A DNA stretch of 23,202 bases, from positions 1 through 23,202 of the IMG/VR virus record IMGVR_UViG_3300010883_000510. One strand, written 5' to 3'. Positions 2,085 to 23,202 of the stretch are shown in pieces. Origin of the DNA: a virus. Position numbers and translations under genes: made by a program. How positions within the stretch are numbered: position 1 is the stretch's first letter; every line of letters begins with the position of its first letter. The notes beneath the pieces are model-generated. The model did not search any database and was not told the DNA's origin. It saw nothing but the letters and a program-made list of their open reading frames with translations.

Positions 2085-2570
2085 ATGGCAACAAGACAAG
2101 ACAGGAAAATGTACGATTTTAAGAGTGTCGGGGAATCTTCGACATTCACTAAAGCTCATCGTATTACAAAAGACCCACTACCCATAGGTATTATGACGCC
2201 TTTGCAACTGGGCTCTGGAAATCAGTTGTTTAAGATGCACACTGATCTCACTAATCAGATTAGTGATAATCTAAGAAACATCGTTTTAACAAATCATGGC
2301 GAGAGGCTCGGCTTATACGATTTTGGCGCAAACTTGCAGGATTTAACATTCGAACTAGGTACCACGGAAGGAGACCAGGAAGCGATGTCTAGAATTAAAG
2401 CGGCTTGTGGAAAGTATCTTCCTTACATGGCTTTAGATGGTTTCGCTTCTGAAACAGAATATTTCAATAATAAAGAGGTCGCAAAAGTTATTTTATTTAT
2501 TACTTACAAAATACCAAGAATTAACTCTGGCCAGAAAGGGCTTAAGATAACCCTATACACAGCGGGATAA
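2085..2570 (+). CDS. 25: Baseplate wedge protein, gp25-like
   Basis: This 161-aa protein belongs to the GPW/gp25 family. These small wedge proteins join the gp6/gp7 core of each baseplate wedge to the sheath-initiating inner ring in contractile tails and related injection systems. The family region spans roughly residues 44-125. It begins with GNQLFKMHTDLTNQISDNLRN and continues with HGERLGLYDFGANLQDLTFE (from H71), the conserved pattern of an Arg followed by a hydrophobic G-x-N-L-x-x-L-x-F-E element. It is somewhat longer than T4 gp25 (132 aa), mainly through an N-terminal extension. The start ATG at 2085 has AGAGG at a good spacing. Three bases separate its stop from the gp6-like ATG, so the two wedge partners are co-translated. 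The family assignment is firm. Confidence 0.9.
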   Translation: MATRQDRKMYDFKSVGESSTFTKAHRITKDPLPIGIMTPLQLGSGNQLFKMHTDLTNQISDNLRNIVLTNHGERLGLYDFGANLQDLTFELGTTEGDQEAMSRIKAACGKYLPYMALDGFASETEYFNNKEVAKVILFITYKIPRINSGQKGLKITLYTAG

Positions 2571-4423: not shown

Positions 4424-5947
4424 ATGTATCTAGTATTTACGGCTAGTAAAGACACTTATATTACAAACAAGATAATCAGTACGTCAGCAAGAGCTACTGA
4501 TGCTAACCTAGGTGGAGCCTCGACGCTCGATTTGTTTAAATTATACGATGAGACGGCGATATCTGGTGAAACTACACCTATAGAATTATCTCGAGCATTA
4601 ATTAAATTCGAACTTCAGGACATATCAGCTTCTCTTAAAGACAAAGTATCATTTGATGATGGATCTTTTAATTGTGTATTAAAATTACACGACGTCCAAG
4701 GAAATCAAATTGCCCCATCGGACTTTTCCCTCGCGGTATTCCCACTCTCTAGTAGTTTTGATGAAGGCAAAGGGAAAGACGTTGCATCGATGGCATATTT
4801 AGATCGCTGTAACTGGCTTACATCTTCTTATACTACAACTAACGTTGTGTGGAACTCCGGCGGAGCTATGGCTTCCGGCACCTTGGGTGCTTCAAACATT
4901 GACATTATAGAAGATGGTGATATCGGCGGCAATAGTACCTATTTCGTTAAGAACCAGGCATTCGAAAAAGGGTCAGAAGATCTAGCGATTGATATAACAA
5001 CAATAGTTTCAGCTTCGATGTGTGGGTTATTACCAAACCACGGGTTTTTGATTGCTTACTCTGGGTCACAAGAACATGACCATCAGTCTAGGTTTGTGAA
5101 AAGGTTTGCTAGTAGGCACTCTCGGTCTCCTTACATGCGCCCTAAATTAATAGTACGCTATGATGACTCTCAAATAGACAGAAATGAAAGTTTCGAATTT
5201 AACGTAACGGGGTCGTTATTTCTAGAGTCATACTCTAGAGGTGCTCGAACGAATTTTATAAGTGGCTCAGCAGCAACATCTGTGACAGGCCATAATTGTG
5301 TAATCTTAAAATTGCACACTGGCAGCTTTTCTAGTTATTTTACAGGATCCCAACATTATTCTAGTGGTCTCCAAAAATCCGGTGTTTATACTGCATCCTT
5401 TGCAATAGACCAGTACGTCTCCGCTAGTGTTACTTCTGTTAGCACACTCGCTGAGTTTGCTGCCGCTTCTGGATCGGTTACTTTCGGACAAGAATGGCTA
5501 AGTTTAGATGAGAATATTAGTTATTTTACCGGTAGTCTAACAATAGACACTCAGAACAATACCAATGCAACCCACCCGCCTAACATTGCCATCACCGCGG
5601 TCAACATAAATTCAGAATACAGATTATCGGATGAGCCAGAGATCCAATTGTTCGTTAGGGACGTCTCCAAGCAGCATAAGTCTGTTCGGGTTCCTAGAAA
5701 ATTGCCTTCCCTAGTCTTGAATGAAGCTTATTACAGGATTAAAGATCCTTATGGCGGCAATATACTAACTCCTTTTGTAAAAACGGGTAATGGGACAAGG
5801 CTATCTGCTCGTAAAGACGGAATGTATTTCCAGCCAAGTTTTGAACACCTTGTTGCAGGTAAAGTATACACTGTAGAAATTTTGGTCGTAGAAAATAACG
5901 TTGAAAGAGTATACGACACTGGAAGTGCCTTCAGGATTGTTATATGA
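4424..5947 (+). CDS. Structural protein with DNRLRE-like N-terminus, probable baseplate component
   Basis: A 507-aa protein of uncertain family. The first 70 residues have the outline of a DNRLRE-type beta-sandwich: DTYIT near the start, an N-L-G-G-A-S-T-L-D-L run, then SRALIKFEL. Such domains occur in secreted and surface adhesion proteins. The central part is rich in Ser, Gly and Thr with repeated SGS/TGS turns. The C-terminal 120 residues (from about YRLSDEPEIQLFVRDVSKQ) look like a separate beta domain. There is no signal peptide and no coiled coil. The start is well supported by GGAG at 4414-4417. Its stop overlaps the next start as ATGA (5944-5947), so it is coupled to the 1145-aa protein. 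Position directly after gp6 suggests a wedge-periphery role. The domain call rests on pattern only. Confidence 0.7.
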   Translation: MYLVFTASKDTYITNKIISTSARATDANLGGASTLDLFKLYDETAISGETTPIELSRALIKFELQDISASLKDKVSFDDGSFNCVLKLHDVQGNQIAPSDFSLAVFPLSSSFDEGKGKDVASMAYLDRCNWLTSSYTTTNVVWNSGGAMASGTLGASNIDIIEDGDIGGNSTYFVKNQAFEKGSEDLAIDITTIVSASMCGLLPNHGFLIAYSGSQEHDHQSRFVKRFASRHSRSPYMRPKLIVRYDDSQIDRNESFEFNVTGSLFLESYSRGARTNFISGSAATSVTGHNCVILKLHTGSFSSYFTGSQHYSSGLQKSGVYTASFAIDQYVSASVTSVSTLAEFAAASGSVTFGQEWLSLDENISYFTGSLTIDTQNNTNATHPPNIAITAVNINSEYRLSDEPEIQLFVRDVSKQHKSVRVPRKLPSLVLNEAYYRIKDPYGGNILTPFVKTGNGTRLSARKDGMYFQPSFEHLVAGKVYTVEILVVENNVERVYDTGSAFRIVI

Positions 5948-8900
5948 GTAATCTTTTTAGCCCATCGGTTGTAAGAGACCTTTACGGAAGCGGTTATGCT
6001 TTTAAAAACCTAACCCGCGATCAGCTAACCGGTTCAGCACCAGAATCAGACTTAGTCTGGCGTGATGACCCTTATGGGACCGGCCTTAAGTCATCACAGC
6101 AGATTTCTTTGGATTGGTCAAAATTCGAGCATCATACATTTTTTAACAATGCTGAAAGTAAAGTTAATGTTGCTTTTGAAAGAATCATAAACGGTTTCCC
6201 TTTTGATGGTAGTAAAAAAGAAGTAAGTGAATTCGAAGATTCACTAGGTGGTTTTGAAAAGTACATTTTTGATGCGTTCCCGAAATATAAAGGGGATCTT
6301 AAATTTACAAAATCGTCATCGCAGTCTTTAGCCTTCCAAGATAAGTCTGGTTATCTTTTTCCAGATATATCCAGGAACGTTTTAGGTGAAAGGGTGATTG
6401 CTGGGGCTTCTGATTCAGGAGACTTCACTTGCGAATTTTGGCTTTACCCTTCATCTTCTACAGCGTACGACAATCAAACAATATTTCAGAAATTAAATAC
6501 TTCCAATAACCATGGAATATCCTTGTTTATAAGTCAGTCATCTGTGTCAGGCACTACGCTGCCGATTTTAATGGGTGTCTCGTCAGGTAGTGTTTTTGTG
6601 TCAGCTTCCGTTGACATTCCAAAAGGAGAATACTCTCATTTAGCGTTTAGCTATGATTCTAGTTCTGATTCTGCAATATCTGTATATGTTAATTCACTGC
6701 TGCAATCAACGTCATCGGTTTCAGAGATTTCAAAATTGGATTTTGCTGCAACGGTTTGCACAATTGCGTCAGGGTCTCAACAAAAATTTAGAAACATCTC
6801 TTTTGCACCGCAGGAGACATTAGATGCTAACCTTGACGAGTTTAGGTTTTGGAAAAACGTAAGAAGCCAGCAGCAAATAAAAGAATTTTACCGAAACAAT
6901 GTATTCCAGCAAGAAGATTTGGCCCTGTATTATAGGTTTAACGAACCAACGGGGTCTTTTGCTAATAAGTCCCTTGCTTTAGATCATTCTGGAAATGGAC
7001 TACATGGTTCAATTACCAATTTTAGTGAAACGATGAGAGGGACAAAAGAGCAATTTCAATTACCTATGCACATGGAAAGATCCTATAACAGCCCAGTTTT
7101 GTTTCCGGACTACCCTAGCTTGCTAACTCTAAACGCTGATTTATTGACTAGCGCTAGCTTATATGACAATAATAATCCCAACGCAATCACGAAATTAATA
7201 CCGCCCCACTACTTTTTAGAAGGCCAAGCTGAAGAAGGCTTGGAAAATGAATTCGGTGCTCAGGGCGAAGCTTATGGATATAATGAAAGCTCCTTTCCTG
7301 GCAATGGAAAATTACCATCATCGCAGGTTTTGTCTTCCTTCTTGTTTGTTTGGGCCAGCTTCTTTGACGAAATCAAGATATACTTAGACAGTTTTGCAAA
7401 ATTGCACGATATAAGTCACAGTGCGATCAATTCAGTGCCCAGCCAATTTTTAATTACACTGGGTAGAAGATACGGGCTAGATCTTCCGAATTCTTTTTCA
7501 TCGGCGAAATTAGGCTCTTATTCTAGTGGAGAAAATTTAACAACTACGGAAGGGTACGGCACACTTAGTTTAAGGGAAGTACAAGAGCTACTCTGGCGCC
7601 GCCTCTTAGCGGAAATGCCTAATATCCAGCGTTCCAAAGGTACTATACATTCGGTTAAAAGTCTGATGCTTTCTTTAGGAATTAACCCTGACACTAACTT
7701 TAGAATTAGGGAGTTCGGCGGACCAAAAACCAAAAAATTACAGAACAATCGTTCCGTAGTCAACAGCTATTATAACTCTATTGACTTCTCTAAAGGAACT
7801 CCGTTCATGTCGTCTTCGTACCTTTCAGCCTATAGACATGCATCCGGCGTTCCATTTGGCGGACCAACACCTGAAAGAATAATTATCGATCATATGGGAG
7901 CTGAATCAAGCACGATGAAGGTCTCCGTCCCCGGAACTCCTCCAGCACTTACAATGCTAACGTCTGCGTCTTGGTCTTGGGAAGGCCACTATATCTTGAA
8001 TCCTTCTCTTCCTAATCAGTCTCTTTTTAGGATTGAGTCTTCTGGATCTTCGACACCTGGCACAAAACCAGGGATTGTAGTTAATCTAACAGCTGTCTCT
8101 GGTTCAAAAACGTCTTCCGGCCAGCCCGGTACTAAACTAATTTTAGCTTTTTCAGGAAGCGAAGCTAGCAAATTATCGATTACTGGTTCGAACATCGACA
8201 TCTATGATGGCAATCCTTGGTACGTTAATATTAACCACACAGCTGGTAATAAAAGATCGGAATTTGCTGTTAGGACCTACAGGACGAATGGTACCGATAT
8301 TTTAGAATCCCACTATTTTTCTGGGTCTTACAGTAACAGCGAAGATACCGTAAATAGACTGTGCGACGTCACTTCTGGGAAAAGAAATTTTGTTGCTATC
8401 GGTTCATCATCCAACTATACAAATGAATTATTAAATCAGTCCGGTGATAATACTGTTGACTTTAATGGTAAGCTTGGCTCAATGAGGTTTTGGACAAAAG
8501 CCTTAGAGTTGAACGAATCAAAGGAACACGCCTTAAACCCATATTCGGTCGGTGTAAATAAGCCATTAGCCAATTATAACTTTATAACTCCTGAAAACAT
8601 CGACATATCAAAGTCTAGCGCCGCAATAACTAGTGGCTCGTTGCCTTTAGGGTCATGGGAAAGATTAAGGTTAAGTACAGACTTGTACCAAGAAATAAGC
8701 AGTTCAAATGGCTATGGTAGGCTCGACGTTATAGATACTAGTAAGAATGGTCATTTTGGGTTTTCTGGATTTACTGCCGCTACGCAGGTGTTTGAGCCTA
8801 CAATCAAACTTTACTCAAGGCTAGATCCAAATTATGATATCACTACTAACGTTAATAAGGTCAGGATAAGGTCTGTGCAAAATATTGAGCTGGCAAGCGA

Positions 8901-9381
8901 AATAAACGCAGATGCCAACTCCGTATATGACTTAGACCCACGAGAGCCTATAACTGACGATCGAAGATTTAGTGTTGAGGCCTCAATAGTCCAGGCTCTA
9001 AATGAGGATATGGTAAATATATTGGCGGATAATCAATATATCAATGACGCTATGGGCACACCTGAACAAATGTTTGCCGTTAACTACCCTGCTTTAGAAA
9101 GACTATCTGACAAATACTTTAATCGATTAACTGATAAAATTAATACAAATGAATATTACAAATTCTTCAAGTGGTTCGATAATAATTACGGTAATTTAAT
9201 AGAAAAAATAATCCCTAGAACAACTGAATTTCTAGGAATTAATTTTGTTATTGAGTCTCACATGTTTGAAAGGCATAAATTGGAATACAAGCAAGGGGAC
9301 GTGCACATCGATCTTAACTCTAGACTAGCAGCAAGAATTGAGCCTTTTTATGAAGGGAAAATTCAGATGGGGAGCACTTAA
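5944..9381 (+). CDS. Large baseplate protein with two LamG-like domains and a tail-protein-I-like core (gp7-like candidate)
   Basis: An 1145-aa protein following gp6, where T4 encodes the wedge scaffold gp7 (1032 aa). Two concanavalin/LamG-like segments are visible. One is near residues 150-355, with FTCEFWLYPSS (161-171), FRFW at 300-303 and LDHSGNGLHGS. The other is near 660-870, with ASWSWEGHYILNP and MRFW at 847-850. Between them, residues about 543-583 read REVQELLWRRLLAEMP, then RSKGTIHSVKSLMLSLGI (563-580). This resembles the Lys-Gly-Thr followed by helix and Leu-Gly motif of P2 gpI-type tail proteins. The C-terminus (NEYYKFFKWFDNNYGNLIEK, IPRTTEFLGINFVIESHMFE) looks like a conserved virion-assembly region. 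The LamG folds are well supported by pattern. The gp7/gpI equivalence is inference from order, size and one motif. AGGA at 5933-5936 precedes the start. Confidence 0.75.
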   Translation: MSNLFSPSVVRDLYGSGYAFKNLTRDQLTGSAPESDLVWRDDPYGTGLKSSQQISLDWSKFEHHTFFNNAESKVNVAFERIINGFPFDGSKKEVSEFEDSLGGFEKYIFDAFPKYKGDLKFTKSSSQSLAFQDKSGYLFPDISRNVLGERVIAGASDSGDFTCEFWLYPSSSTAYDNQTIFQKLNTSNNHGISLFISQSSVSGTTLPILMGVSSGSVFVSASVDIPKGEYSHLAFSYDSSSDSAISVYVNSLLQSTSSVSEISKLDFAATVCTIASGSQQKFRNISFAPQETLDANLDEFRFWKNVRSQQQIKEFYRNNVFQQEDLALYYRFNEPTGSFANKSLALDHSGNGLHGSITNFSETMRGTKEQFQLPMHMERSYNSPVLFPDYPSLLTLNADLLTSASLYDNNNPNAITKLIPPHYFLEGQAEEGLENEFGAQGEAYGYNESSFPGNGKLPSSQVLSSFLFVWASFFDEIKIYLDSFAKLHDISHSAINSVPSQFLITLGRRYGLDLPNSFSSAKLGSYSSGENLTTTEGYGTLSLREVQELLWRRLLAEMPNIQRSKGTIHSVKSLMLSLGINPDTNFRIREFGGPKTKKLQNNRSVVNSYYNSIDFSKGTPFMSSSYLSAYRHASGVPFGGPTPERIIIDHMGAESSTMKVSVPGTPPALTMLTSASWSWEGHYILNPSLPNQSLFRIESSGSSTPGTKPGIVVNLTAVSGSKTSSGQPGTKLILAFSGSEASKLSITGSNIDIYDGNPWYVNINHTAGNKRSEFAVRTYRTNGTDILESHYFSGSYSNSEDTVNRLCDVTSGKRNFVAIGSSSNYTNELLNQSGDNTVDFNGKLGSMRFWTKALELNESKEHALNPYSVGVNKPLANYNFITPENIDISKSSAAITSGSLPLGSWERLRLSTDLYQEISSSNGYGRLDVIDTSKNGHFGFSGFTAATQVFEPTIKLYSRLDPNYDITTNVNKVRIRSVQNIELASEINADANSVYDLDPREPITDDRRFSVEASIVQALNEDMVNILADNQYINDAMGTPEQMFAVNYPALERLSDKYFNRLTDKINTNEYYKFFKWFDNNYGNLIEKIIPRTTEFLGINFVIESHMFERHKLEYKQGDVHIDLNSRLAARIEPFYEGKIQMGST

Positions 9382-10584: not shown

Positions 10585-13500
10585 ATGGCAATTTTTAAAG
10601 ACAAAACCGGACGCGGCGAAGTAGATTACGCAAAATCACCGGTTCAGGGTTCTGACGGTACTATTTTATTTTTAAACGACCGTACTGGCATGACGCCAAA
10701 TGTCTATGGTTACAGCGGGACAGGTCTCCACACAAACCACGTTGTTTTTCAACTTAGGGGAGAGTCTGGAGGTGTGCAGGATGTATCGGATAGTAGATTT
10801 TCCGTAACCGAAAGTACAGCGCTTACGAAAAGAATAGAAAACGTTACCCATAATCAAAAACTAAAAACTTTTGAATTTAATGACGGTAGAACTGCTACTT
10901 TTAGTCCAAAATTGGACAAAAAATATCAAAGGCAAGAGACACTTGCTAGTTTGTCCATAACGCTGAATATCGTTCCCTCAGTATCCAACACGATATCGAT
11001 TACATTTGGTTCTTACGGTGCCTCAGCCCCGCAAGTGATTACTATGGCCGTTGGCGCAGGTACCGATTCAACTAGTTTCTCTTTAAATGCTGCCACTATT
11101 TATGCAGCCAACAATGCTACGACGACTTTAACTGCGGCTTCTATCGCTGTCCTTGCTAATTCCGTTAATAGTTATACGGCTACGTCACTCGGTGCAGTAA
11201 TTACAATAACTGCCACCAATCCTGACGTAAATCTCAGCTTTACATATAGCGAGACAATATCTGTGGGGAACGCCTCCGATGTAGTGAATACTCCTGGAGT
11301 TACACCAACCCAATACCCACCTAACTTAGGGAGAGGCCAGGGCCATTCAAATTCTCCACACGAATCGATTTTACCATTTGAGGTAGGCAACACAGCCGCT
11401 GAGTTCAATACCGTGGTAGAAGATGGAGACTCCCAGATCATATTATCTTTTTGGGTACGTCCATCAAGTTTTGGCCAAGGTACCGATGGCGGTGGATCCT
11501 GTATAATGGAGCAAGTAAGTGGCACAGCGAGGGGCTTTGGTGTCATATTAACATCAACCGGGGAATTGGTTTTTCGTTTTTACGACTTTGGAGCAAATTC
11601 AACATCGGCAAATGCGTTTCAACAAATTAAGACAACTAAACGACTGGTTTTAAATCAGTGGTACCATATAACTATTTTTGCCGTAGGTATGAAAAGCGTC
11701 AGCGGGGCTTCTTCAAATCCATTATACAACCCTGGAGGACTCGATCAATCATATGCATCCGGTGTTGGCTCAGTGCCCTATGCTTCTCCGCAAGTTGAAA
11801 TTTATATTAATGGATCCGCACAAACCGATATATCGGAATTAGGCAACACGTCCGGAAATTTTGCTGGCAACTTAAACGCGGTACCCTCTATGCCCGTAGT
11901 ACTTGGTACAGGGCTAGCCGGGTATGATAGCACACCGGAATTCCAATCAGGCGCAGCTGCTAATTTTAATGGAAGGCTAGCAGAAGTAACGTACTTTTAT
12001 ACTCATTCTCTAGAGCGCGCCCTGAATCAAATAGCTGGTGCTGCAAATGTTAGTTATCGTTCTGTCATTGCAAGATCCCTTATGACCGGCACGCGGCAGC
12101 CAACATCCGGCATAACAAACGTATCAGAGCGACTGCTCCTAAGAGATTTAGATCAACATTCAGCTCACCCAACAGTTAAAAGGTCCGGTGACCAAAGAAG
12201 ATTAGGTAACCATACTGTTAAATTTGACGATTCAAAAGCACAAACACTAGGCGCAGCAACTGTTCAGTATCCAACTAAGCTAGTTAGCGGTGATAACCTT
12301 CTTCAGACTATTTATGGCAACGCTGGTTATTTTGATGGTAGCCTTACTTTGCAACATACTGCTTCCGTTGAATCTTACGATACCCGTTATAGAAGAAACG
12401 ACCAGCCCTCGCTTGATCCTTTTGTAGAAAGCAGGGTTTATATAGATAGCGGAAGTACCTTCTATCAAACAGGTACACTTGAAAGTGTTTTACCCGGGTT
12501 TAGTGGTCCATTGCATAACAAGGCAATGTTCATTATCGATCTTACGCCTTCGGCTGAAACGGAATTAGACAACGGCCATGTGAGCATCTCAGCCGCCGAG
12601 AGCGTAGACCGCACCCTTGAACGTAATATGAAATTAATGGCATATTACAATTTTGATAGAAAAATTTGGGAGCCATTACATCACTCACCTGCACCATTCT
12701 CCACCTCCACACCCGCCGGTGGTAATGCAATCGATTCGGCTAATCTTCAGAACGATTCTTTTATTGCTCGTTGTTATGAGACTAGACTTGGGTTTTCCCC
12801 TATGTTTGCCGGGCAAGTATCATTAGTACATGACACAAAAACCAAAGCCCAGATTGACTCTGCAGTCACCGGCGATGGTAATCCTGGTTTATCTGACTGG
12901 ACGTTCTTTGATGACAACGCTTATAAAGCAAGAGCGAAGCCAACAGACTTTTTTGGATTTCCTGTTCACGCAAAATATCACGCAACTAGTTCTTGTGCAG
13001 TTTCTATGTCCGATTACATAGCTGAACCATTCCTTTTAGAGAAGATAGAATATACATACTACTTTGAAACAAAAATACCAAGGACCACCAATACCGAACG
13101 AGAAGGATCCTTCTACAACACCGGAGATCTGGAGAACAGCGGAGAAGGTATACCAGAAGCACTCTACTTGATTAGGGACAAGACTGGCATCAATAATGAC
13201 GACGGCAAACCGTCTGAAGTTCACAACGGCGTCCCTGACGCGAATAATTCAATTATGTACTTTAACGCGCATTCTTTCTTTGTGTTGAAACAATCACTGG
13301 GTGTAGTTACTGGCAGTAATAACGGTACCTCTTTTAGGATTTTTGGTTCGAGTAACCTTGGAACTCTCAGTGGCGAACCTAGAAGGGCCGGCCCAGCCGG
13401 AACACGCCAAGCATCAGTAGCTCAATCATTTTCAATACCCACATCCCAGGCATTGGTCTCTGGTTCATCTGCATTAACTTACGTTGAAGATACTAGAGAA

Positions 13501-15360
13501 CTTATTGGCTATGCTCAACACGTTCACCATGGCTATAACGATAAATCTCTCGACAACCCTTCGATAGGTAAATTAGCTCATGATCATTTTGCAAGCCAGG
13601 ATAGATTACTTCGTGAAGTTAATATTAATGTAAACAACAATGCTTATGACAGCAACGGCAATTCGTTTACTGGATACGAAGATTATCCAGAATTTACAAT
13701 GAGATTTACTCCATCAAAGGTACAAAAAACTGAGTTTGGTGGTACTATAAAAGAGTATACTGGCTTCTCCTATCAGAACAATAACCATGGCGAAATTTCT
13801 TTAGGGCATTCTGGACAACGCCTACCTGGTGAAATGACTTCAGGCAGAGATTTTGCTGCTGGGGTGACAGGACAATTAAGCTCGGGTTCATACATAGCCG
13901 CCGGAGGACCAAACGTCAACAGCGCAGAGGGAGTCCAGAAGTCTGTGGCTACAATTAACGTTTCTGATTCTTCCGTATATGATCAAGCGGCACCATACGT
14001 GTTGTTGCCCGAAGATAAATTAATTTTTGGTTGGCAGTGTCCATATCATGGGATAGACGGCCTACAATACGCCTCATACGGCGGTACCGGCTTAGGGATG
14101 ACACTTAAGTCAAAAAATAATAGGCCACAAAAAATCACTTTTTATGGTTCTTTTATAAGAAACTCACAGCCTAAACAGCCTCAGTTAAACCAGCTTCTTA
14201 ATAATGATATTGTTCATGAGTCAATTGGTGCTGTTTCGATCCACGACCAATTTGATATCGAAAGTAGTTCTGCATTTTCTGGTTCCTACGTTGACGAGGC
14301 TATGTCAGGATCCCTGGAAGGGCCTCTATATAGAGGCTGGAACAATAAGTTTCATAGTGATAATGGTGGAAGTTCGGTAACGGCTGAGCTCACAACAAAC
14401 TTGGCCCGTCGTGTCGGTGGACGAAATTCCGTAGGTAGTATAGGTACCACCGGTTCTTTAAGAAGGACTGTATCTATAGCTTCTCATGATGTAACAGAAT
14501 ATGACTCATTTTTGTTTGACCTTGAAAGTATGTTCAGCGTTGATGAAAGGAGCACTCCGACTCAGCAAGCCACACTAGGGAATTACCAGAACGACCTCGG
14601 CACCCGGAAAGCTGACGATCTGCGCATTGGAAACGACCCAAGTTTAATTGGTAATATAGCAACCAACGCCGGCGTTATCGCCAATGTCGACATTGGTGCT
14701 AGCTTCTTTTACCATAGGTACAATACCGTTGGCAGGGTTCGCTCTAGCCAGATTGGTAAAGGTTCAACTACCTTTACTATTAGCGTTACAGGAAGCTATT
14801 CGGTCCCTGGACTAATAGATCCAGATCAACCTTCGACATTCGTTGGTACCAAGCAGCTTTTAAACCAGCGCCCCCTCGAAGTCCAGGCCGAACGAGGCTT
14901 TATTAACTCTGCAGAGACATCACAATTTATGTTTGGTATTGGTGAAGGAGTACAGAACGCTCATGTGGGAATTGTAGGCGGTGGTGGTGGTGTTGGAATC
15001 GATGTGGAAAAAATAAGAGGGTTCAGGTATGGTTTTTCAAACGTAGTAGATAAAAAACCTAGAAATGTCTTCCGCCGCGACAGATACGGGCAATTGAGGG
15101 ACATGTTAGAAATGGCCCCGAATACAGCGTATATCAACGATAGAACGAATCAAATAACATACCCTATCGAAGCCCGGTTTTTTGACAATGATGGCAGTGT
15201 AATACAGCCAGGAAATACAAGCTGCTCAAATCTTTCAACTTATTGTACTTCTTCTGCTCCATATTTTGATAGGGATAAAAAATCAGACGGTAGCGATCTT
15301 GTAATTAGGAATCGTGGCCCACTTAATAATAAGATAGCTGATATTACTATAGAGATTTGA
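10585..15360 (+). CDS. Very large structural protein with LamG-like domain, probable baseplate/fibre adhesin
   Basis: A 1591-aa protein with GGAG at 10576-10579 before its ATG. Residues about 110-240 are Thr/Ser/Ala-rich strands, probably an Ig-like or shaft domain. Residues 270-485 form a concanavalin/LamG-like domain. It begins IILSFWVRPSSFG (285-297), continues with WYHITIFAVG and VEIYINGSAQT, and ends GRLAEVTYFYTHSL (463-476). The long middle (500-1450) has no repeat I can see, but contains many aromatic and His-rich patches (HVHHGYNDKS, KLAHDHF). A Gly run precedes a basic C-terminal region with RYGQLRDMLE (1500-1509), and two cysteines (C1547, C1554) lie close to the end, before SSAPYFDRD. 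LamG domains bind glycans in many proteins, so surface attachment is a fair inference. A connecting role between baseplate and fibre is also possible. Confidence 0.7.
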   Translation: MAIFKDKTGRGEVDYAKSPVQGSDGTILFLNDRTGMTPNVYGYSGTGLHTNHVVFQLRGESGGVQDVSDSRFSVTESTALTKRIENVTHNQKLKTFEFNDGRTATFSPKLDKKYQRQETLASLSITLNIVPSVSNTISITFGSYGASAPQVITMAVGAGTDSTSFSLNAATIYAANNATTTLTAASIAVLANSVNSYTATSLGAVITITATNPDVNLSFTYSETISVGNASDVVNTPGVTPTQYPPNLGRGQGHSNSPHESILPFEVGNTAAEFNTVVEDGDSQIILSFWVRPSSFGQGTDGGGSCIMEQVSGTARGFGVILTSTGELVFRFYDFGANSTSANAFQQIKTTKRLVLNQWYHITIFAVGMKSVSGASSNPLYNPGGLDQSYASGVGSVPYASPQVEIYINGSAQTDISELGNTSGNFAGNLNAVPSMPVVLGTGLAGYDSTPEFQSGAAANFNGRLAEVTYFYTHSLERALNQIAGAANVSYRSVIARSLMTGTRQPTSGITNVSERLLLRDLDQHSAHPTVKRSGDQRRLGNHTVKFDDSKAQTLGAATVQYPTKLVSGDNLLQTIYGNAGYFDGSLTLQHTASVESYDTRYRRNDQPSLDPFVESRVYIDSGSTFYQTGTLESVLPGFSGPLHNKAMFIIDLTPSAETELDNGHVSISAAESVDRTLERNMKLMAYYNFDRKIWEPLHHSPAPFSTSTPAGGNAIDSANLQNDSFIARCYETRLGFSPMFAGQVSLVHDTKTKAQIDSAVTGDGNPGLSDWTFFDDNAYKARAKPTDFFGFPVHAKYHATSSCAVSMSDYIAEPFLLEKIEYTYYFETKIPRTTNTEREGSFYNTGDLENSGEGIPEALYLIRDKTGINNDDGKPSEVHNGVPDANNSIMYFNAHSFFVLKQSLGVVTGSNNGTSFRIFGSSNLGTLSGEPRRAGPAGTRQASVAQSFSIPTSQALVSGSSALTYVEDTRELIGYAQHVHHGYNDKSLDNPSIGKLAHDHFASQDRLLREVNINVNNNAYDSNGNSFTGYEDYPEFTMRFTPSKVQKTEFGGTIKEYTGFSYQNNNHGEISLGHSGQRLPGEMTSGRDFAAGVTGQLSSGSYIAAGGPNVNSAEGVQKSVATINVSDSSVYDQAAPYVLLPEDKLIFGWQCPYHGIDGLQYASYGGTGLGMTLKSKNNRPQKITFYGSFIRNSQPKQPQLNQLLNNDIVHESIGAVSIHDQFDIESSSAFSGSYVDEAMSGSLEGPLYRGWNNKFHSDNGGSSVTAELTTNLARRVGGRNSVGSIGTTGSLRRTVSIASHDVTEYDSFLFDLESMFSVDERSTPTQQATLGNYQNDLGTRKADDLRIGNDPSLIGNIATNAGVIANVDIGASFFYHRYNTVGRVRSSQIGKGSTTFTISVTGSYSVPGLIDPDQPSTFVGTKQLLNQRPLEVQAERGFINSAETSQFMFGIGEGVQNAHVGIVGGGGGVGIDVEKIRGFRYGFSNVVDKKPRNVFRRDRYGQLRDMLEMAPNTAYINDRTNQITYPIEARFFDNDGSVIQPGNTSCSNLSTYCTSSAPYFDRDKKSDGSDLVIRNRGPLNNKIADITIEI

Positions 15361-15410: not shown

Positions 15411-18400
15411 ATGGCAAAAAATATTTCGAAAGGTGATCTTAGGAAGCAAGATTTTTTAGTCTTGAAGCAATCTCGTGACGACACAGTCACGAGTGTTATT
15501 GCTCCTAATGGATTACAGGTAGGGTTAACGGACAAAAGGTTCCAGAACCCACTAACGGCTAAAGGCCCTATAATTGGTGAAGCCGGGCTCACGGGCTCGC
15601 TAACTCAATTGGTCGACGGTACCCCGTACCTTACCGCGGGTGCAAATATTCTTTTAACAACTGGCTCGACAGGCCAGATTACTATCGCAACCAGCATAGG
15701 TTCCATCGCTGTTAATAGGAATAAGCAGCAATATAATATAGCTTCGAGTGATATCGCTGCTGGTACCGATATATCGGTTACTAACTCTGCATTCAACACT
15801 ATCGACGTCCAAGATACGGACAGCTTTATAGACGTGTATCATAATAATAAATTGATGCTTTCTGGTACTGTCGCAGATGTTACAGCGGCTACTGCAGACT
15901 ATTATATAAAGCAATCTGACAATGAATTGGTTTTTGGATTCAATGTTTTAACTAACGACACCATCGTAACTTCTGTTATATCTTCTGGTTCCGCCAATGT
16001 TGCATCAGCTGGTGACGCGTTGGCTCTTACCAATAATGCATATAACATCTTGGTAGCTTCCGCCGGTGGCGTCCAGATATCCTCTGATGCGTTATCTATA
16101 AAATTAAAAACAGCCTCTGCACTTGCCACTACATCGGACGGACTATCTGTAGACATAAATAGTTTAACCCAGTTGTCGTCTGGTGTAGATGCCTCTAATG
16201 ATAAATTATTAATCTATGATGCTAATACCGGAGCATTAAAAGCTGTAGCCCCGAACTTAATCGGCGCAACCGCCGCTCTTGACATTGCATCAGTCTCCAG
16301 TTTTTTAACAGAAACTAGTCTGGCTTCTGGCGATTTATTAGGTGTTGCCGATGTGGACGCCGGCAACGCTGTTAAGAAAATAACAGTTGAAGATTTTGGT
16401 CAATACCTTGCTCTTGGTACGAATGCTGGTATTGGTGAATCATCTGGTAAACTAACGATCGATCTAAACGATCTAAGTTCTGAAGTTGTCGCAGTCGCCT
16501 CTGACAGCATCGCGTTCATCGATGCAGGTGATGGTTCAACCAAGAAGGAGACGATCGTTGATTTTGTTTCTGCCATAGCTGCCACAGTTACTGCGACTGG
16601 GCTAGCTCCTTCCGCTGGAACACTAAAGCTTGACATAACAAACCAAACGTCCGTAGGGACAATTCATACATCCGATGAAATAATTATATGGGATGCTGAC
16701 ACTAGCTCATTAAAGAAAGCAACTGTTAACCAATTGCAAGCTGGGTCAGCAGCTCCACCAGCTGCGCAATATGTCACCTTGGCAACAGATAATACTCTGA
16801 GCAATGAAAGAGTGCTGACCGCCGGCGATGGTATAGATATAACGGACGGTGGAGCTGGAGCAGCTGTTACTATAGCAGCTGATGTTACTGATTTCATCGA
16901 TACATCTTACGGGTTAAAAGAATCTTCGAATAACGTACAAGTAGCTTTAAAAACTAGCGGTGGCCTCACGTTTGATAGTGGGGAAATTAAGCTAGACTAT
17001 GGCTCAACCTCAGGCTTACCAGCTCAAGGAACTAACTCCGTTAGTATAATAGCTGGCGATGGTCTCAAAACAGGTGGTAGTTTTAATATCGGCGCTGCTA
17101 CATCCACCATACAGCTTGATATCAAACCTTCTGACTTTGCTGGCAACGGCCTTAGAACCAGTGGTAATGATCTAACGGTGTCCATCGGTGCTGGTAACAA
17201 TATCCAGATCACCACTGGGTCTGATGGATCTTTTATTATTGCTGGTACTACGCCCACGAACGCTATTTATACAGCGGGCAATGGTTTAGATTTAACCGGC
17301 CAAGAATTTAGTGTCGACCTTAAAGCTAACTCCGGATTACAGATCGTTTCGAACGAGTTAGCCATCGCCTTAAGTGACTTTACCGGAAACGGATTAGAAA
17401 ACGACGGTTCTGATAATCTAAGGGTAAAATCTGATAGTAACACTGGCACGGGGCATGCTCCAGTTAGTGTCTCGACAAATGGTGTCTCTGTTAGATATGG
17501 TGCTGGATTAGAGGATGCTGGTTCTGGTGTTTTAGCTATAACCGATGGTGGTGTGTCTAATACTAAATTAGCCAATTCATCGTTAACGATTACAGCTGGC
17601 GACGGACTTCAAACAGGGGGCTCCGTCTCTCTGGGTTCTAGCGTTACGCTAAACATTGACGTTTCTGATTTCGCAGGTTTAGGTGTTAAAGTTACCGGCT
17701 CTGAAGATCTCGCCATAGATAATTCGATTGTTGCTACTTTAACCGGATCACAGTTTTCTGGCGCCATAGGCGTGACTGGCTCAGTAGGCGCCACAAGCTT
17801 TATGAGTGCTAGTATGTTTAAAGCCCCGGCTTTATCTGGGTCTCTTACTACGTTACATGATGGCACTCCTTATTTATTAGCCGGTACTAACATTGCACTC
17901 TCGACTGGTTCGAACGGAGCGATTACAATCACTGCAGCGGGATCCGCTGAGGGTGACATATCAGCTGTTGCAGCTGGCACCGGTCTATCTGGTGGCGGAA
18001 CTTCTGGAAGTGTTTCTCTTGCTATAGATAACGCTGTTGTTGCTACCTTAACTGGCTCCATCTTCTCGGGTCATGTAGGAATTACTGGGTCTCTACATTC
18101 AACTGCAGAGCTTAGCGGATCAATTTTAAAAGCCCCTGCTATATCCGGATCGCTCACCCATCTCGAAGATGGTAGCTCTTATTTAATAGCTGGCGCCAAT
18201 GTTACTATTGCTACGGGATCTAATGGAGCTATAACTATTGCTTCTACTAGCGGAGCTTCAAATGCATTTAGTACGCTCGCTGTTGCTGGGCAAGATAATG
18301 TTGTTGCCGATTCTGAAACAGACACTTTAACATTAGCTGCCGGTTCTAACGTCGTTATAACGACTAACGCCGGCTCTGACACAATTACCATAGCAGCGAC

Positions 18401-21400
18401 TGATACAAATACGACGTACGTCTCTTCTGACTTTGACCATGACCAGCTTACTAACTTTGAAGCTAACGAACATATTAATTGGGCATCTGCTTCCGCAGGC
18501 ACAGTCCATGCGACAAACTATTCCGATACAAACACGACCTACACTGCGGGAGATGGTCTAGACCTAGGTGGTACTGAATTTTCGTTGGATCTTAAATCCG
18601 GCTCTGGTCTTACAATAACTTCGGGTGAACTGGATATAGACGATTCAGTTGTTGCTACTCTATCCGGCTCAGTCTTCTCCGGTCATGTCGGTGTCACTGG
18701 TTCACTTCATACCACCGCCGAAGTCAGTGGATCGATTCTAAGAGCGCCAGCTTTGACTGGTTCGCTAACCCATCTAGAAGATGGTAGTTCATATTTGGTT
18801 GCAGGGACGAACGTCCAGGTGGCCACTGGTTCGACCGGCGCTATTACTATTTCCTCAACAGATACTAATACGACATATTCAGCTGGTACTGGTTTAGATC
18901 TATCCGGAACAACTTTCGATCTAGATCTTAAAGCAGACTCTGGATTAATTATAGATGCAACGGAATTGTCTATTGATAATTCAAAGATTGCTACTCTATC
19001 CGGCTCTGTATTCTCTGGTCATGTTGGTGTAACCGGTTCAATCCATTCAACTGCTGAAATCAGCGGCTCAATTTTAAGAGCGCCAGCTTTGACTGGGTCA
19101 CTAACTCATCTTGACGATGGCAGTTCATACTTAGTTGCCGGGTCTAATGTTACTATAACCACCGGTTCTACCGGAGCGGTGACCATTGCTTCAACTGGTG
19201 GTGCAGCAAACGCATTCAGTACATTCGCCGTCGCCGGCCAAGACAATGTAGTTGCGGACTCTCAAACTGATACTTTAACATTAGCCGCAGGCTCTAACGT
19301 TACTATAACAACTGTCGCAGGGTCTGATACGATAACGATTGCTTCCGGTGGCGGTTCGATTACAGCAACATCTGGCTCGACATCAGTTAATTCCATGTCT
19401 ACGTTAAGGTTCGGCCCCGGTCTATTATTAAACCAAGATTCTTCTGGCATAGCTTCAGTAACAGCATCAATCGGCCCACCAGAAGACGGCTCATATTCCG
19501 ACGGCCTATTTACCGATTTCACAGCAAATACTTTGGTCGGAACAGCCGTCGATAGGTTCAACGAGATATTTTTGGCATTAGCTCCAAACCCAGCGCCTGC
19601 ATTGGATGACATGGATTGTAATAATTCGGCTGGTACCACTGCATTCCTCTCCTTTGGGTCTAGTAATGACCAATCATCTGCTTCGCCAGCTTATGTATCG
19701 AGCAATACCGCAGCTGGGTTTTCAGCTGTTGATGTAAATGCGTCTTATTCGGCTGCTACTAGCGGTAATAATATTAAGAAAGGCATATACGATGGAACAA
19801 CAATTGTTTCCGGAGACTTGAATGAAGATATACCAATAAACCAGCACAATACTGATGTAACAAATTATGTGGTTAACTCATTCGGTGACGCAAACGAAGG
19901 CACTTTAAAATTACACCTTAACGGATCCCAAATACACAGCGTCGACTTAACTAACGCCGGCTCTGGTGGCGGTGTTCCTGGTTCTGGTACCGGCACCCAA
20001 GTTAACGGTAATGGATCAGGGTTTATAAACCTGTCCCAGACCGGAAGCGCAGTTCAGTCAAACAATGTCGCATTCGCTCCCTTCCAACACCGAACAGGTA
20101 AATTTCAGGTTGGCACTGCTGATCAGAGAAATGGCTGGAACTATGCCCAGGTGATCCATTCAAAGCTATCTGGTAATATTACAACAAACTATGTTGAGTG
20201 GGTTAATGATAGCAGTTCGGATGTATTGGCTGCCACAGGAAATTCAATTAATTTTGTAGGCTCAGGCTCAATCCATCTATCTGGTGTTGAATATTTCCAA
20301 AGTGGCACAGTTGAATATAAAACTCGGGTAACAAACGCGTACAAATACGTGTACGACAATAGCAATATTACATTTTCATTGTTAAATGCAGCGTCAGCGC
20401 AATCTAGCCTTAGTATTACACTACCAGCCCAATCTAAGCCGACTATAAATACTGGAGCCGGCGAGACCCACACGAAGGTACTCCACTTGACATCTTCAGC
20501 AGCGATAACGGCTGATTACTTCCTTAGTGGCACTATTACTTCCGGTGTTAACGTTTCGCATCCTATGAAGTCTAATCTATCAAATACTGCCCAGAGTACG
20601 TTAAGCCCAGTTTTAATGTATAACTTGTCTAATAATTCGACAGCACTGTCTGAAACATTTAGAAGAGAGGACTACAGGGTAGTCTCTTCGTCTTATAATA
20701 CACAAGCATCGGTTACTGATTCGGGTAATATTTGGAACTCAGCGGTATTTATGACATCCTCGAATGGAGGCCATTCAACTGGACTGCAATTTTTCAATCA
20801 AACACTGGTATCCCCAATAAGCAGTTTAAATTCTGGCAATTTTTCTATATTTTCTAATGCCCCGTCACAAAATCCAGATTATTCTAGTCAAACTGGCACT
20901 CGGACATTCCATCGCTGGTTTAAAAACGAAACTGGCTCGAACCAATTCGATTTAAGCCTCGCAATTGCAGGCTCAGGTAATATCGTATCCCACGGGACTA
21001 CTTTAGACTCATCAAAAATCACTATATTGGTAAAAATCCCAGGGAAAACAGGATGGATGGATGTTGCTGGCACTTATGCGATAGACTCTGTTGCTGATAA
21101 TGACGGAGCGTCAGCTGTTACAACAATAATTTCGAAAGACTTAAGTCTTGCTGCGACAAATTACGTAAACTTCGGCAACATTCCCATTGCTGATGATGAG
21201 TACATCGTTGCTTGCATTAAAGCTGATGAAAGCTGGACCGGGAATATATCATCAATTACTGTCAACTTCGGCGCCGGCACAGGAACATTGTCTGCAGTCC
21301 CAGATTTAGATGACATCGACTGCAACCAAGATGGTACCGACGCGAATTTATCATTTGGTTCGAGTAAGTCTATAGGCGGATACTCCGATCCATCAACAGC

Positions 21401-23069
21401 CGCGGGCTTTTCAGCAGCAAATGTTAACGACTTCTATCAAACCGCGGCTAATAGTAACAACCTAAGGAGAGCGGTCTTTGCTGGGACAACAATTCTTGAA
21501 GGTGATCTAAACGAAGACGTCTCATCACCCGGAAACGACTACGTTGCTAACGCTTTTTCTGATGCTAACAGCGGAAGCTTAAAATTAGAGGTCAATGGCT
21601 CGATAATACACGAGTTCGAGATCACAGGATCAGTTAGTTTAGTTGGAGCAGGTAACCCAGGCTCGGGATCAGACACTAATTTGAACGGAAATGGATCTGG
21701 ATTTATATCGTTGAGCAATTGGGCCCCTGGAATGTTTGATAATGGCGTTCCTAGGTATTCTGAGATCCAAAGAACCGCGAGGTACCGCGTCGTTACTGCA
21801 GAACAGAGGACTGGCTGGAATTATGCTAGGGTAATCCACTCTGTTGGAGGCTCAGACCGCGCTACTAACTATATCGAGTGGATTAATGATCCAAATGCGG
21901 ATGCTTTGGCTTCAGCCGGCAACGGATTGTCGATTTTCGGAGATAATTCGTTCTCTTACCTAAGCGGAGTCAAATATTTCACCTCACCGTCCGGAAGTAT
22001 ACTCGCACGAGTGAGTAACATCTATAAAAACGTGTATTCCGATAGTAATTCGGCAATTTCCTTCACCAGTTTTACAAATGCGTCCGCTTCGAAGCTTATT
22101 CAGTCTGGTTCAGGCCTGTCTTCAACAAAGACGACTAATTCTTCGACTGACAGCTTACAAACAATCAGCACGACCGCAGGAAGCCAGGACCAATTGCTCC
22201 ATGTGTCAGGTACCATCAATTTCTCACGAGCTAAGTCTCTTCCTGGTACATATACAACAGCTTATAGTTGCGCAGGCGCCCTTGTTTTCCAACATCCGCT
22301 CAAAGCCAACCTTACTGTCCCGACACAGACGACAACGAACCTACTGGTTTGGACGCCTTCGGATACTTCTAACGCAAATACGGAAGAATATTTCACCGGT
22401 GAAGCATATCGTTTAGTAAGTGGCTCTTATACTGCACAAACAGACGTTTCTGGCGGTTCAAAAGTCTGGAATTCCCAAAGGTCGATGAATGACGTAGGAT
22501 CCTATTCTGAGCATTCCACCGGTCTTTTGATATATGACACATATCTGGTCCCTCCGAAGGATGGCGGCTCGTCTGGAGACTTTCGGAACCATGATGAAGG
22601 GGGTGGAGTAGAATCCCCTGCAGGAAACGTGAATTATTCCTCGGGGGCATTAACTAATGCTACAAGAGATTATTTTAGATCGTATAAGAACAATACTTCG
22701 AACGACCTTTCCAGCGTCAGCATAGTAGTTTACGGTAACGCCACGCTCAAAGGTCGTGTAGGTGCCAACCAAGGCTCTTTAGGGGCAAATACACACATAT
22801 ACGTTGAGGTTGGTATTCCTGGAAAAACAGGGTTCCTGGATTTAGGAAGACCTTCAGCTGGCGCTGGTAATTACCTCGAAGGTGATGGATGTCTAAGTGG
22901 AGACATAGACGCAACCATTGATGTCGCCGGCGCAACTAACACATGTACTTTTAACGGTAGAACAGTTGATGGCACGGTATCCACCGCTGGCGAATACTTA
23001 GTTATTAGAATTTCTGCGTCCAAGGATTGGACCGGGCATGTCGACAGAATCTCTGTGGATTGGAGCTAA
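15411..23069 (+). CDS. Giant tail fibre, repeat-built shaft with duplicated C-terminal head
   Basis: A 2552-aa tail fibre. Residues 1-45 form a charged N-terminus that probably attaches to the baseplate. Residues 100-195 resemble a fibre adaptor domain (FIDVYHNNKLMLSG). Residues 255-445 hold four hairpin-like repeats of the form D-x5-D-A-x-T-x3-K-K. Residues about 540-1310 are shaft repeats of two kinds: a GDGLDLxGTEFSLDLK type, and an ATLSGSVFSGHVGVTGS type ending GSTGAITI. A boundary segment near 1360-1398 (FTDFTANTLVGTAVDRFNEI) precedes the head. The head consists of two homologous modules starting at L1398 and L1966. The protein is very rich in Ser, Gly, Thr and Ala, poor in Cys, and has no Gly-X-Y collagen tract or coiled coil. 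Shaft repeats are typical of trimeric beta-structured fibres; receptor binding by the head is inferred. Confidence 0.85.
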   Translation: MAKNISKGDLRKQDFLVLKQSRDDTVTSVIAPNGLQVGLTDKRFQNPLTAKGPIIGEAGLTGSLTQLVDGTPYLTAGANILLTTGSTGQITIATSIGSIAVNRNKQQYNIASSDIAAGTDISVTNSAFNTIDVQDTDSFIDVYHNNKLMLSGTVADVTAATADYYIKQSDNELVFGFNVLTNDTIVTSVISSGSANVASAGDALALTNNAYNILVASAGGVQISSDALSIKLKTASALATTSDGLSVDINSLTQLSSGVDASNDKLLIYDANTGALKAVAPNLIGATAALDIASVSSFLTETSLASGDLLGVADVDAGNAVKKITVEDFGQYLALGTNAGIGESSGKLTIDLNDLSSEVVAVASDSIAFIDAGDGSTKKETIVDFVSAIAATVTATGLAPSAGTLKLDITNQTSVGTIHTSDEIIIWDADTSSLKKATVNQLQAGSAAPPAAQYVTLATDNTLSNERVLTAGDGIDITDGGAGAAVTIAADVTDFIDTSYGLKESSNNVQVALKTSGGLTFDSGEIKLDYGSTSGLPAQGTNSVSIIAGDGLKTGGSFNIGAATSTIQLDIKPSDFAGNGLRTSGNDLTVSIGAGNNIQITTGSDGSFIIAGTTPTNAIYTAGNGLDLTGQEFSVDLKANSGLQIVSNELAIALSDFTGNGLENDGSDNLRVKSDSNTGTGHAPVSVSTNGVSVRYGAGLEDAGSGVLAITDGGVSNTKLANSSLTITAGDGLQTGGSVSLGSSVTLNIDVSDFAGLGVKVTGSEDLAIDNSIVATLTGSQFSGAIGVTGSVGATSFMSASMFKAPALSGSLTTLHDGTPYLLAGTNIALSTGSNGAITITAAGSAEGDISAVAAGTGLSGGGTSGSVSLAIDNAVVATLTGSIFSGHVGITGSLHSTAELSGSILKAPAISGSLTHLEDGSSYLIAGANVTIATGSNGAITIASTSGASNAFSTLAVAGQDNVVADSETDTLTLAAGSNVVITTNAGSDTITIAATDTNTTYVSSDFDHDQLTNFEANEHINWASASAGTVHATNYSDTNTTYTAGDGLDLGGTEFSLDLKSGSGLTITSGELDIDDSVVATLSGSVFSGHVGVTGSLHTTAEVSGSILRAPALTGSLTHLEDGSSYLVAGTNVQVATGSTGAITISSTDTNTTYSAGTGLDLSGTTFDLDLKADSGLIIDATELSIDNSKIATLSGSVFSGHVGVTGSIHSTAEISGSILRAPALTGSLTHLDDGSSYLVAGSNVTITTGSTGAVTIASTGGAANAFSTFAVAGQDNVVADSQTDTLTLAAGSNVTITTVAGSDTITIASGGGSITATSGSTSVNSMSTLRFGPGLLLNQDSSGIASVTASIGPPEDGSYSDGLFTDFTANTLVGTAVDRFNEIFLALAPNPAPALDDMDCNNSAGTTAFLSFGSSNDQSSASPAYVSSNTAAGFSAVDVNASYSAATSGNNIKKGIYDGTTIVSGDLNEDIPINQHNTDVTNYVVNSFGDANEGTLKLHLNGSQIHSVDLTNAGSGGGVPGSGTGTQVNGNGSGFINLSQTGSAVQSNNVAFAPFQHRTGKFQVGTADQRNGWNYAQVIHSKLSGNITTNYVEWVNDSSSDVLAATGNSINFVGSGSIHLSGVEYFQSGTVEYKTRVTNAYKYVYDNSNITFSLLNAASAQSSLSITLPAQSKPTINTGAGETHTKVLHLTSSAAITADYFLSGTITSGVNVSHPMKSNLSNTAQSTLSPVLMYNLSNNSTALSETFRREDYRVVSSSYNTQASVTDSGNIWNSAVFMTSSNGGHSTGLQFFNQTLVSPISSLNSGNFSIFSNAPSQNPDYSSQTGTRTFHRWFKNETGSNQFDLSLAIAGSGNIVSHGTTLDSSKITILVKIPGKTGWMDVAGTYAIDSVADNDGASAVTTIISKDLSLAATNYVNFGNIPIADDEYIVACIKADESWTGNISSITVNFGAGTGTLSAVPDLDDIDCNQDGTDANLSFGSSKSIGGYSDPSTAAGFSAANVNDFYQTAANSNNLRRAVFAGTTILEGDLNEDVSSPGNDYVANAFSDANSGSLKLEVNGSIIHEFEITGSVSLVGAGNPGSGSDTNLNGNGSGFISLSNWAPGMFDNGVPRYSEIQRTARYRVVTAEQRTGWNYARVIHSVGGSDRATNYIEWINDPNADALASAGNGLSIFGDNSFSYLSGVKYFTSPSGSILARVSNIYKNVYSDSNSAISFTSFTNASASKLIQSGSGLSSTKTTNSSTDSLQTISTTAGSQDQLLHVSGTINFSRAKSLPGTYTTAYSCAGALVFQHPLKANLTVPTQTTTNLLVWTPSDTSNANTEEYFTGEAYRLVSGSYTAQTDVSGGSKVWNSQRSMNDVGSYSEHSTGLLIYDTYLVPPKDGGSSGDFRNHDEGGGVESPAGNVNYSSGALTNATRDYFRSYKNNTSNDLSSVSIVVYGNATLKGRVGANQGSLGANTHIYVEVGIPGKTGFLDLGRPSAGAGNYLEGDGCLSGDIDATIDVAGATNTCTFNGRTVDGTVSTAGEYLVIRISASKDWTGHVDRISVDWS
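16180..16742 (+). repeat. Four degenerate hairpin modules in the fibre
   Basis: The protein repeats a short unit four times: DKLLIYDANTGALKAV, then DLLGVADVDAGNAVKKITVE, DSIAFIDAGDGSTKKETIV and DEIIIWDADTSSLKKATV. Each has a hydrophobic strand, an Asp-Ala turn, a Lys-Lys (once Leu-Lys) strand start and a following helix-like stretch. Spacing is irregular (roughly 140-180 bases) and the DNA has diverged, so the copies are old. Confidence 0.7.
17715..17934 (+). repeat. Fibre shaft module, copy 1 of the ATLSGS...GAITI repeat
   Basis: This copy of the roughly 73-residue shaft module starts at IDNSIVATLTGSQFSG and ends SNGAITIT. It is the most diverged of four full copies, with GATSFMSASMFKAP where the others have STAEVSGSILRAP. 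A still more distant half-copy (LTGSLTQLVDGTPYLTAG) sits near the N-terminus at about bases 15590-15650. Confidence 0.75.
18024..18240 (+). repeat. Fibre shaft module, copy 2
   Basis: This copy starts IDNAVVATLTGSIFSG and contains LHSTAELSGSILKAPAISGS and HLEDGSSYLIAG, ending SNGAITIA. It is followed by AFSTLAVAGQDNVVADSETD (from about base 18258), a linker that occurs again after copy 4. Confidence 0.75.
18525..18860 (+). repeat. 336-base tandem unit, first copy (shaft module copy 3)
   Basis: A 112-residue unit runs from DTNTTYTAGDGLDLGGTEFS through DDSVVATLSGSVFSGHVG to SLTHLEDGSSYLVAG and TGAITISS. The next 336 bases repeat the whole unit in frame. A 22-base segment at 18739-18760 is identical at 19075-19096, exactly 336 bases later. 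Confidence 0.85.
18861..19196 (+). repeat. 336-base tandem unit, second copy (shaft module copy 4)
   Basis: This copy runs from DTNTTYSAGTGLDLSGTTFD through DNSKIATLSGSVFSGHVG to SLTHLDDGSSYLVAG and TGAVTIAS. It is the closest relative of the preceding unit at DNA level, although third-position changes are already common. The two copies are in frame and lengthen the shaft by 112 residues per chain. Confidence 0.85.
19602..21280 (+). repeat. Fibre C-terminal head module A
   Basis: Residues 1398 to about 1955. Landmarks in order: LDDMDCN, LSFGSS, TAAGFSAVDVN, SGDLNEDI, NGSGFINLS, QRNGWNYAQVIHS, TNYVEWVND, LSGVEYF, the VSSSYNTQASV segment, PGKTGWMD and SWTGNISSITVNF (W1942). All recur in the same order in module B, so this is an ancient duplication. 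Confidence 0.8.
21306..23069 (+). repeat. Fibre C-terminal head module B
   Basis: Residues 1966-2552. It carries the same landmarks as module A: LDDIDCN, LSFGSS, TAAGFSAANVN, EGDLNEDV, NGSGFISLS, QRTGWNYARVIHS, TNYIEWIND, LSGVKYF, VSGSYTAQTDV, PGKTGFLD and DWTGHVDRISVDWS. The landmark offset grows from 568 to 598 residues along the module, so B has about 30 extra residues. These include a loop near its end with two cysteines (C2494, C2512) that A lacks. Confidence 0.8.
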
Positions 23070-23072
23070 CAA

Positions 23073-23202
23073 ATGGCGGGAAAAAGCAATACTTCGGCTA
23101 CCTTCTTTGCTCAGAAAAAGCTTTTGGGCAAAGCGCATACATCAAATCTTAAAGTTGATGGCGAAGAAGTAATAGGCTCAAACATCCAGGCTGCTACTTC
23201 AC
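23073..23202 (+). CDS. Start of a further structural gene (3' partial)
   Basis: Only the first 43 codons are inside the window. The ATG at 23073 lies three bases after the fibre stop and has GGAG at 23062-23065, seven bases upstream. The visible protein begins MAGKSNTSATFFAQKKLLGK and continues AHTSNLKVDGEEVIGSNIQA. The basic start, with no signal peptide, resembles the N-termini of virion proteins encoded next to fibres in marine myoviruses. That recollection cannot be tested here, so I give no function. It is probably co-transcribed with the fibre. Confidence 0.75.
   Translation, partial: MAGKSNTSATFFAQKKLLGKAHTSNLKVDGEEVIGSNIQAATS

Follow-up and report, generated by a model that had tools for sequence, protein, structure and literature searches.

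In the long tail fibre of phage T4 the C-terminus of gp34, followed by gp35, gp36 and gp37, holds the next fibre protein (PMC5537660). The branched tailspikes of phages G7C, CBA120 and phiKp24 contain T4gp10-like docking domains (PMC9700779), and there too one fibre or spike bears the docking site for the next. The fibre gene described here resembles the T4 system in that a proximal fibre protein is proposed to hold the following protein by its C-terminus. T4, however, uses trimers and a separate knee-cap monomer, whereas here the holding part would be a folded head, which is duplicated. In the branched tailspikes the docking site is N-terminal in the primary fibre, whereas here it is proposed to lie in the C-terminal head. 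No sequence relation to T4 gp34, gp36 or gp37 was found in PHROGs with either the whole protein or its modules (E 0.1), and no gp10-like fold appeared among the fold or profile matches, where absence is no proof. Counterparts of both elements described below, a head and a dock, are found in phages CcrColossus and Atu_ph07, as PHROGs families phrog_8578 and phrog_9417. These have the same head-dock-head-dock order, profile homology and a matching head fold, but only single heads, with no tandem on one chain seen, and their link to the marine proteins is visible only via profile or fold.

The window, i.e. the whole stretch of DNA analysed, comes from an uncultured virus; the record has 23,202 bases, with genes ordered from left to right (Table 1). 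Its fibre gene lies among baseplate genes. The whole fibre protein matched no Pfam family above cut-off and no PHROGs family (E 0.1). In the shaft (15594-19220) five copies of the motif GSLTxLxDGxxYLxAGxNxxxxTGSxGxxTI were seen, at protein positions 62, 810, 913, 1117 and 1229, the later ones within longer near-repeats; the shafts of neighbouring fibre genes in relatives hold similar stretches.

Table 1. Features of the window and their positions
Feature	Position	Strand	Basis
gp25-like baseplate-wedge gene	2085-2570		
gp6-like baseplate-wedge gene	2574-4412		
LamG-type lectin domain gene	5944-9381		above Pfam cut-off
LamG-type lectin domain gene	10585-15360		weak Pfam match
Fibre gene, 2552 aa: anchor, shaft, stem, head A, head B	15411..23069	+	open frame, translation
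N-terminal anchor, about 50 residues, boundary approximate	15411..15560	+	N-termini compared, 91 proteins
Stem before head, 44 residues, IGPPEDGSYSDGLFTDFTANTLVGTAVDRFNEIFLALAPNPAPA	19470..19601	+	recurs at that site in relatives
Head module A, 568 aa	19602..21305	+	
Head module B, 587 aa, C-terminal up to the stop; proposed socket for the following fibre protein	21306..23066	+	
Start of next gene, cut by the end of the window; MAGKSNTSATFFAQKKLLGKAHTSNLKVDGEEVIGSNIQAATS, the initial 43 residues of an LK-type dock domain	23073..23202	+	translation

The sequence-only reading of this DNA had proposed that the fibre protein ends in two related heads in tandem, and this was borne out. Modules A and B aligned over their full length in BLASTP with 37% identity and 54% similarity (E 2e-95), and a profile of the A family matched that of the B family with a probability of 100% over 541 columns. 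Structure prediction of each module, which had been proposed beforehand as a check, revealed a common fold; neither of the outcomes named as refuting, absence of such a fold or likeness confined to motifs, was observed. The AlphaFold2 single-chain models had mean pLDDT values of 93.7 (A) and 94.7 (B), and the predicted secondary structures agreed at 86% of 539 aligned positions (shifted controls: mean 46%, maximum 54%). Identity peaked at 40-60% per 40-residue block within the first 200 residues and dropped to 23-37% beyond approximately residue 250; this profile along the whole length indicates that the likeness exceeds short motifs.

Searches of Pfam, PHROGs and NCBIfam with the modules of the window returned nothing useful, and the head family has no entry in Pfam or NCBIfam. 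The phrog_8578 profile did not directly match the A or B module of the window at E 0.1; it matched 2 of 68 relatives, with a best E of 9.7e-5. The PDB gave chance matches alone when searched by sequence, and no structure matching a whole module when searched by fold. The N-terminal part of the modules resembled immunoglobulin-like domains, but no function was read from the resemblance, because the scores were those usual for any such sandwich. In each module the C-terminal third aligned with a baseplate chain of Staphylococcus phage phi812 (PDB 9euf chain 0), with Z 7.3 for A 348-561 and Z 8.3 for B 357-587 (131 residues, rmsd 3.4 for B), a match that covers at most a quarter of a module and has a score in the range of common arrangements.

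Scans of IMG/VR yielded about 100 related loci, many of them on contigs of 100-290 kb. The heads were found in two layouts, two in tandem or one alone, always C-terminal, and every complete member of the family ends with a head. Proteins with a single module, which the earlier reading had suggested looking for, do exist: 15 distinct ones in the first set and 25 of the 98 heads in a larger one. A single head of the same family was also present in four huge phages of 462-735 kb. Among the relatives there were no proteins with a single B or with more than two heads; apparent triple heads proved to be the match of one module split in pieces. One tandem protein (L080:9458-13894) was the sole one seen with a long insert, of about 150 residues, between the heads. 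Bacterial genomes gave one match alone, in a Methylococcaceae bin. The contig L099 (NHDW01000006.1, 305,838 bases, TMED69 bin), which carries a tandem head, a dock and a gp6-like wedge gene, resembles a phage contig in the Methylococcaceae bin, and this could be a hint to the host or a binning error.

N-termini related to the anchor were found on tandem-head as well as on single-head proteins. Of the 91 proteins compared, 55 tandem and 22 single ones fell into one large cluster, where single linkage over 110 residues was used and may chain unlike anchors. The stem occupied the same position in nearly all inspected tandem and single proteins and in three of the four huge phages, and CcrColossus gp87 and gp88 have a similar motif ahead of their heads.

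In a tree of 129 modules the 57 A modules lay on one side of a branch with a support of 97, the 57 B modules formed one branch (support 100) whose stem was long (0.4), and the 15 single heads formed a third (support 85). No switching of position between the A and B clades was observed in any of the 57 tandem proteins. Since A, B and the single heads each form one branch, one duplication explains them all: the tandem heads arose by a single ancient event, which is not recent and not confined to this phage. Rooting with the single heads of the huge phages gave the order (B,(single,A)), in which the grouping of A with the single heads had a support of only 92 and the outgroup branches were long, so that the single heads may be either ancestral or the product of a loss of B. 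A is the more conservative copy, nearer to the single heads.

The comparison of rates in the two modules among relatives, another of the checks proposed earlier, showed them to evolve about equally, with a mean pairwise identity of 0.494 for A and 0.474 for B. Within one protein A and B were 0.27-0.42 identical, on the whole below the values found between phages in A or in B. Neither module contained a sharply hypervariable patch of the receptor-tip kind; entropy was flat at about 1.0-2.1 bits per 20 residues. Taken together, the tree, the identities, the rates and the absence of such a patch argue against a fresh duplication and against a rapidly varying tip. A recent widening of the host range by duplication was thus not supported, and the host-range reading of the duplicated C-terminal head is not supported as stated.

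The gene directly downstream of the head turned out to begin with a conserved domain of about 225 residues, which we call the dock. It is recognizable by the motif ...FAQKKLLGKAHTSNLKxDGEExIGSNIQ... or ...ISLKKLxGKAHTSNDKGLANEGLPSG..., and by a uniform rule a gene with a dock motif followed all 98 heads that had room downstream, starting between 16 bases before and 92 bases after the stop of the head gene (median 4). The next gene of the window bears the motif. Past the dock the downstream proteins diverge; they are long and fibre-like, up to about 2700 aa. The number of docks equalled that of head proteins in each of 23 long records, two of which (G005 and G012) contained two docks and two heads each, every pair adjacent. 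In the reverse direction, a scan starting from docks (the best 80 of 104 confirmed matches) found a head one gene upstream in 78 of 78 cases, with a dock profile that had been learned from docks behind heads. An adjacent dock was detected in three of the four huge phages. In the 735-kb phage (W04; L181, LR756501.1) the gene after the single head starts with MPFGSSGDNRANVAFKNVMGRSQTRAEHDLGNEP, which is dock-like by eye and below profile detection. This strict pairing of head and dock is the new observation of this work.

To see which module goes with the dock, dock N-termini were divided, blind to the heads, into two clusters of 67 and 31. The dock label had to change once on the last-module tree, once on the B tree and four times on the A tree. 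The NDK dock type occurred with the single heads and one B subclade, the LK type with the other B modules. One protein (L042) had an A from the NDK-associated A clade, a B from the main clade and an LK dock. The partial Mantel correlation with the dock was 0.62 for B given A and 0.007 for A given B. The correlation climbed along A toward B, from 0.19 to about 0.6, and, since B adjoins the dock, the co-variation may be due in part or wholly to genetic linkage. Because sub-regions of A gave this linkage-like gradient, we gave the pairing counts more weight than the partial Mantel values. That not one of the 98 pairs combined mismatched head and dock subtypes is suggestive but not proof.

A fold search in predicted viral structures with the model of A led to proteins of the cultured phages CcrColossus, Atu_ph07, PTm1 and G. 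In CcrColossus three genes stand in a row: gp87 has a stem with its head, gp88 a dock followed by stem and head, and gp89 a dock, the two heads being 65% and the two docks 54% identical. The corresponding row in Atu_ph07 is AUZ95085 (head), AUZ95084 (dock and head) and ASV44746 (dock). In PHROGs the heads of both phages belong to phrog_8578 and the docks to phrog_9417, both families of unknown function. Profile comparison linked the marine docks, including the family of the window's dock, to those of CcrColossus and Atu_ph07 with 97.3% (E 2.4e-11) and the marine heads to theirs with 95.3% (E 2.4e-8), whereas dock-against-head controls gave 0.1-0.3%. ORF-290 of PTm1 is a head by fold alone, without sequence recognition, and ORF-291 directly after it is a dock by profile (96.2%), again of phrog_9417. 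Phage G was rejected as a further case: gp427 was a weaker fold match, and no dock was found in the following gene, gp428.

When CcrColossus head and dock queries were run separately against 50,697 phage records, they returned the same 52 records, which include phiCbK, CcrColossus and Atu_ph07 and also some duplicate deposits or close relatives. These contained 77 head places and 75 dock places, neighbouring each other; the two absent docks are probably the second dock of both Atu_ph07 records, which is visible by profile. The gap between head and dock was worked out for 21 cultured records and measured 4-19 bases. The genomic setting varies: the CcrColossus pair lies shortly downstream of the capsid genes and the PTm1 pair ahead of a gene annotated as a neck protein. 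Fibre-like appendages on the capsid have been described for PTm1 (PMC13282480, PMC10537231), capsid-associated whiskers have been reported for Atu_ph07 and a head filament for the phiCbK group. The head-dock pair and reported capsid-associated filaments thus coincide in all three, a co-occurrence without a control. Proteomics of phiCbK detected eight virion proteins, with head and dock both absent (PMC3556154 Table 2).

Phages have exchanged heads separately from their core genes, as is evident from the conflict between the terminase and head trees. In a terminase tree of 20 phages tandem and single heads were intermixed, yet the single heads formed one clade in the head tree. Terminases were 87% identical between L031 (tandem) and L056 (single), 80% between L045 (tandem) and L059 or L066 (single), and 75% between L079 (tandem) and L048 (single). 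The fibre proteins of the first pair were 72% identical over 633 aligned N-terminal positions and their heads about 52% alike. The heads thus travel as cassettes, a tandem taking the place of a single head or the reverse between phages whose terminases are 75-87% identical. A and B also recombine: in two adjacent tandem genes of L017 the A modules were 83% and the B modules 57% identical. Behind each B of these two genes (L017:812-4738 and L017:4742-13465) stands the dock subtype that is usual for its clade. In four records (L005, L009, L017 and L022) the tandem heads were 59-67% identical to those of the window, and relatives of neither the gp6-like wedge nor the LamG baseplate protein of the window were found in these records, which are 138-236 kb long and may be fragments. 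The tails of these phages may be of another kind.

Because one matching domain always opens the gene behind such a head, we regard the last head as a probable socket and the fibre gene as probably coding for one link in a phage fibre made of several proteins. B in the window, or the lone head in single-module proteins, would hold the dock of the next fibre protein, and the chain would be extended where that protein itself ends with a head, an arrangement seen in CcrColossus gp87-gp88-gp89 and in L017, L027, L041 and L055. The earlier reading had considered that one head might hold the other in place; the data suggest that the last module holds the next protein. A could serve as a spacer, make a second contact or act as an adhesive head, and B would have acquired a new dock type after the duplication. 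If stem, head and dock are a standard connector, as we propose, the swapping of heads as cassettes would follow. Genetic coupling and co-variation suggest that the C-terminus of one fibre protein may hold the N-terminus of the next; physical contact and the order of the chain are what we infer from them. The lack of a dock behind phage G gp427 and the phiCbK proteomics speak against this explanation. The strict link between head and dock points to B as a likely assembly joint.

Other explanations account for parts of the data. The heads could be free C-terminal receptor-binding heads, the tandem providing two sites and the downstream gene encoding a separate fibre of the same operon. In favour of this are their C-terminal place on a long fibre with baseplate genes nearby, the swapping of tandem and single forms between close phages in the manner of host-range cassettes, and the similar heads of the four records in which no gp6-like relative was found. 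The free variation of the remainder of the downstream protein, on the other hand, is what is expected if the tip is at its C-terminus. Moreover, variation is even along the modules, and the downstream N-terminus is obligatory whatever the genomic setting, its type tracking the last head; we therefore consider free heads unlikely. A recent or phage-specific duplication that widened the host range has the presence of two diverged copies in its favour, and nothing else. It is contradicted by the module tree, in which A and B each form one clade, and by the low identity of A and B within one protein, and can hardly be maintained.

It is also conceivable that head and dock do not touch, either because both bind a common third part of the virion or because the dock is a folding or trimerisation chaperone for the head. 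Phage fibre genes commonly adjoin the gene of their assembly factor, and the last dock of phiCbK-like phages is small, at about 231 aa. The dock is, however, the N-terminal part of long fibre-like proteins and recurs ahead of a further head, both of which fit a structural link better than a chaperone, and we regard the arrangement without contact as rather improbable. The connector explanation can be taken further, though only tentatively: head and dock may form a general plug and socket in large phages of very different kinds, making fibre links interchangeable, with the tandem reflecting one copy that was freed from the role of socket or added to it. The chains may then be the capsid filaments of PTm1, Atu_ph07 and the phiCbK group.

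These results correct the plain reading of a duplicated C-terminal head as a sign of wider host range. Two families of unknown function, phrog_8578 and phrog_9417, gain a testable role as the halves of one connector, in families that span large phages of the ocean and of Caulobacter, Brevundimonas, Agrobacterium, Sinorhizobium and Salicola. If the connector explanation is true, the order of the fibre links of giant phages would be readable from gene order, and the receptor-binding tip would have to be sought in the downstream protein and not in the head.
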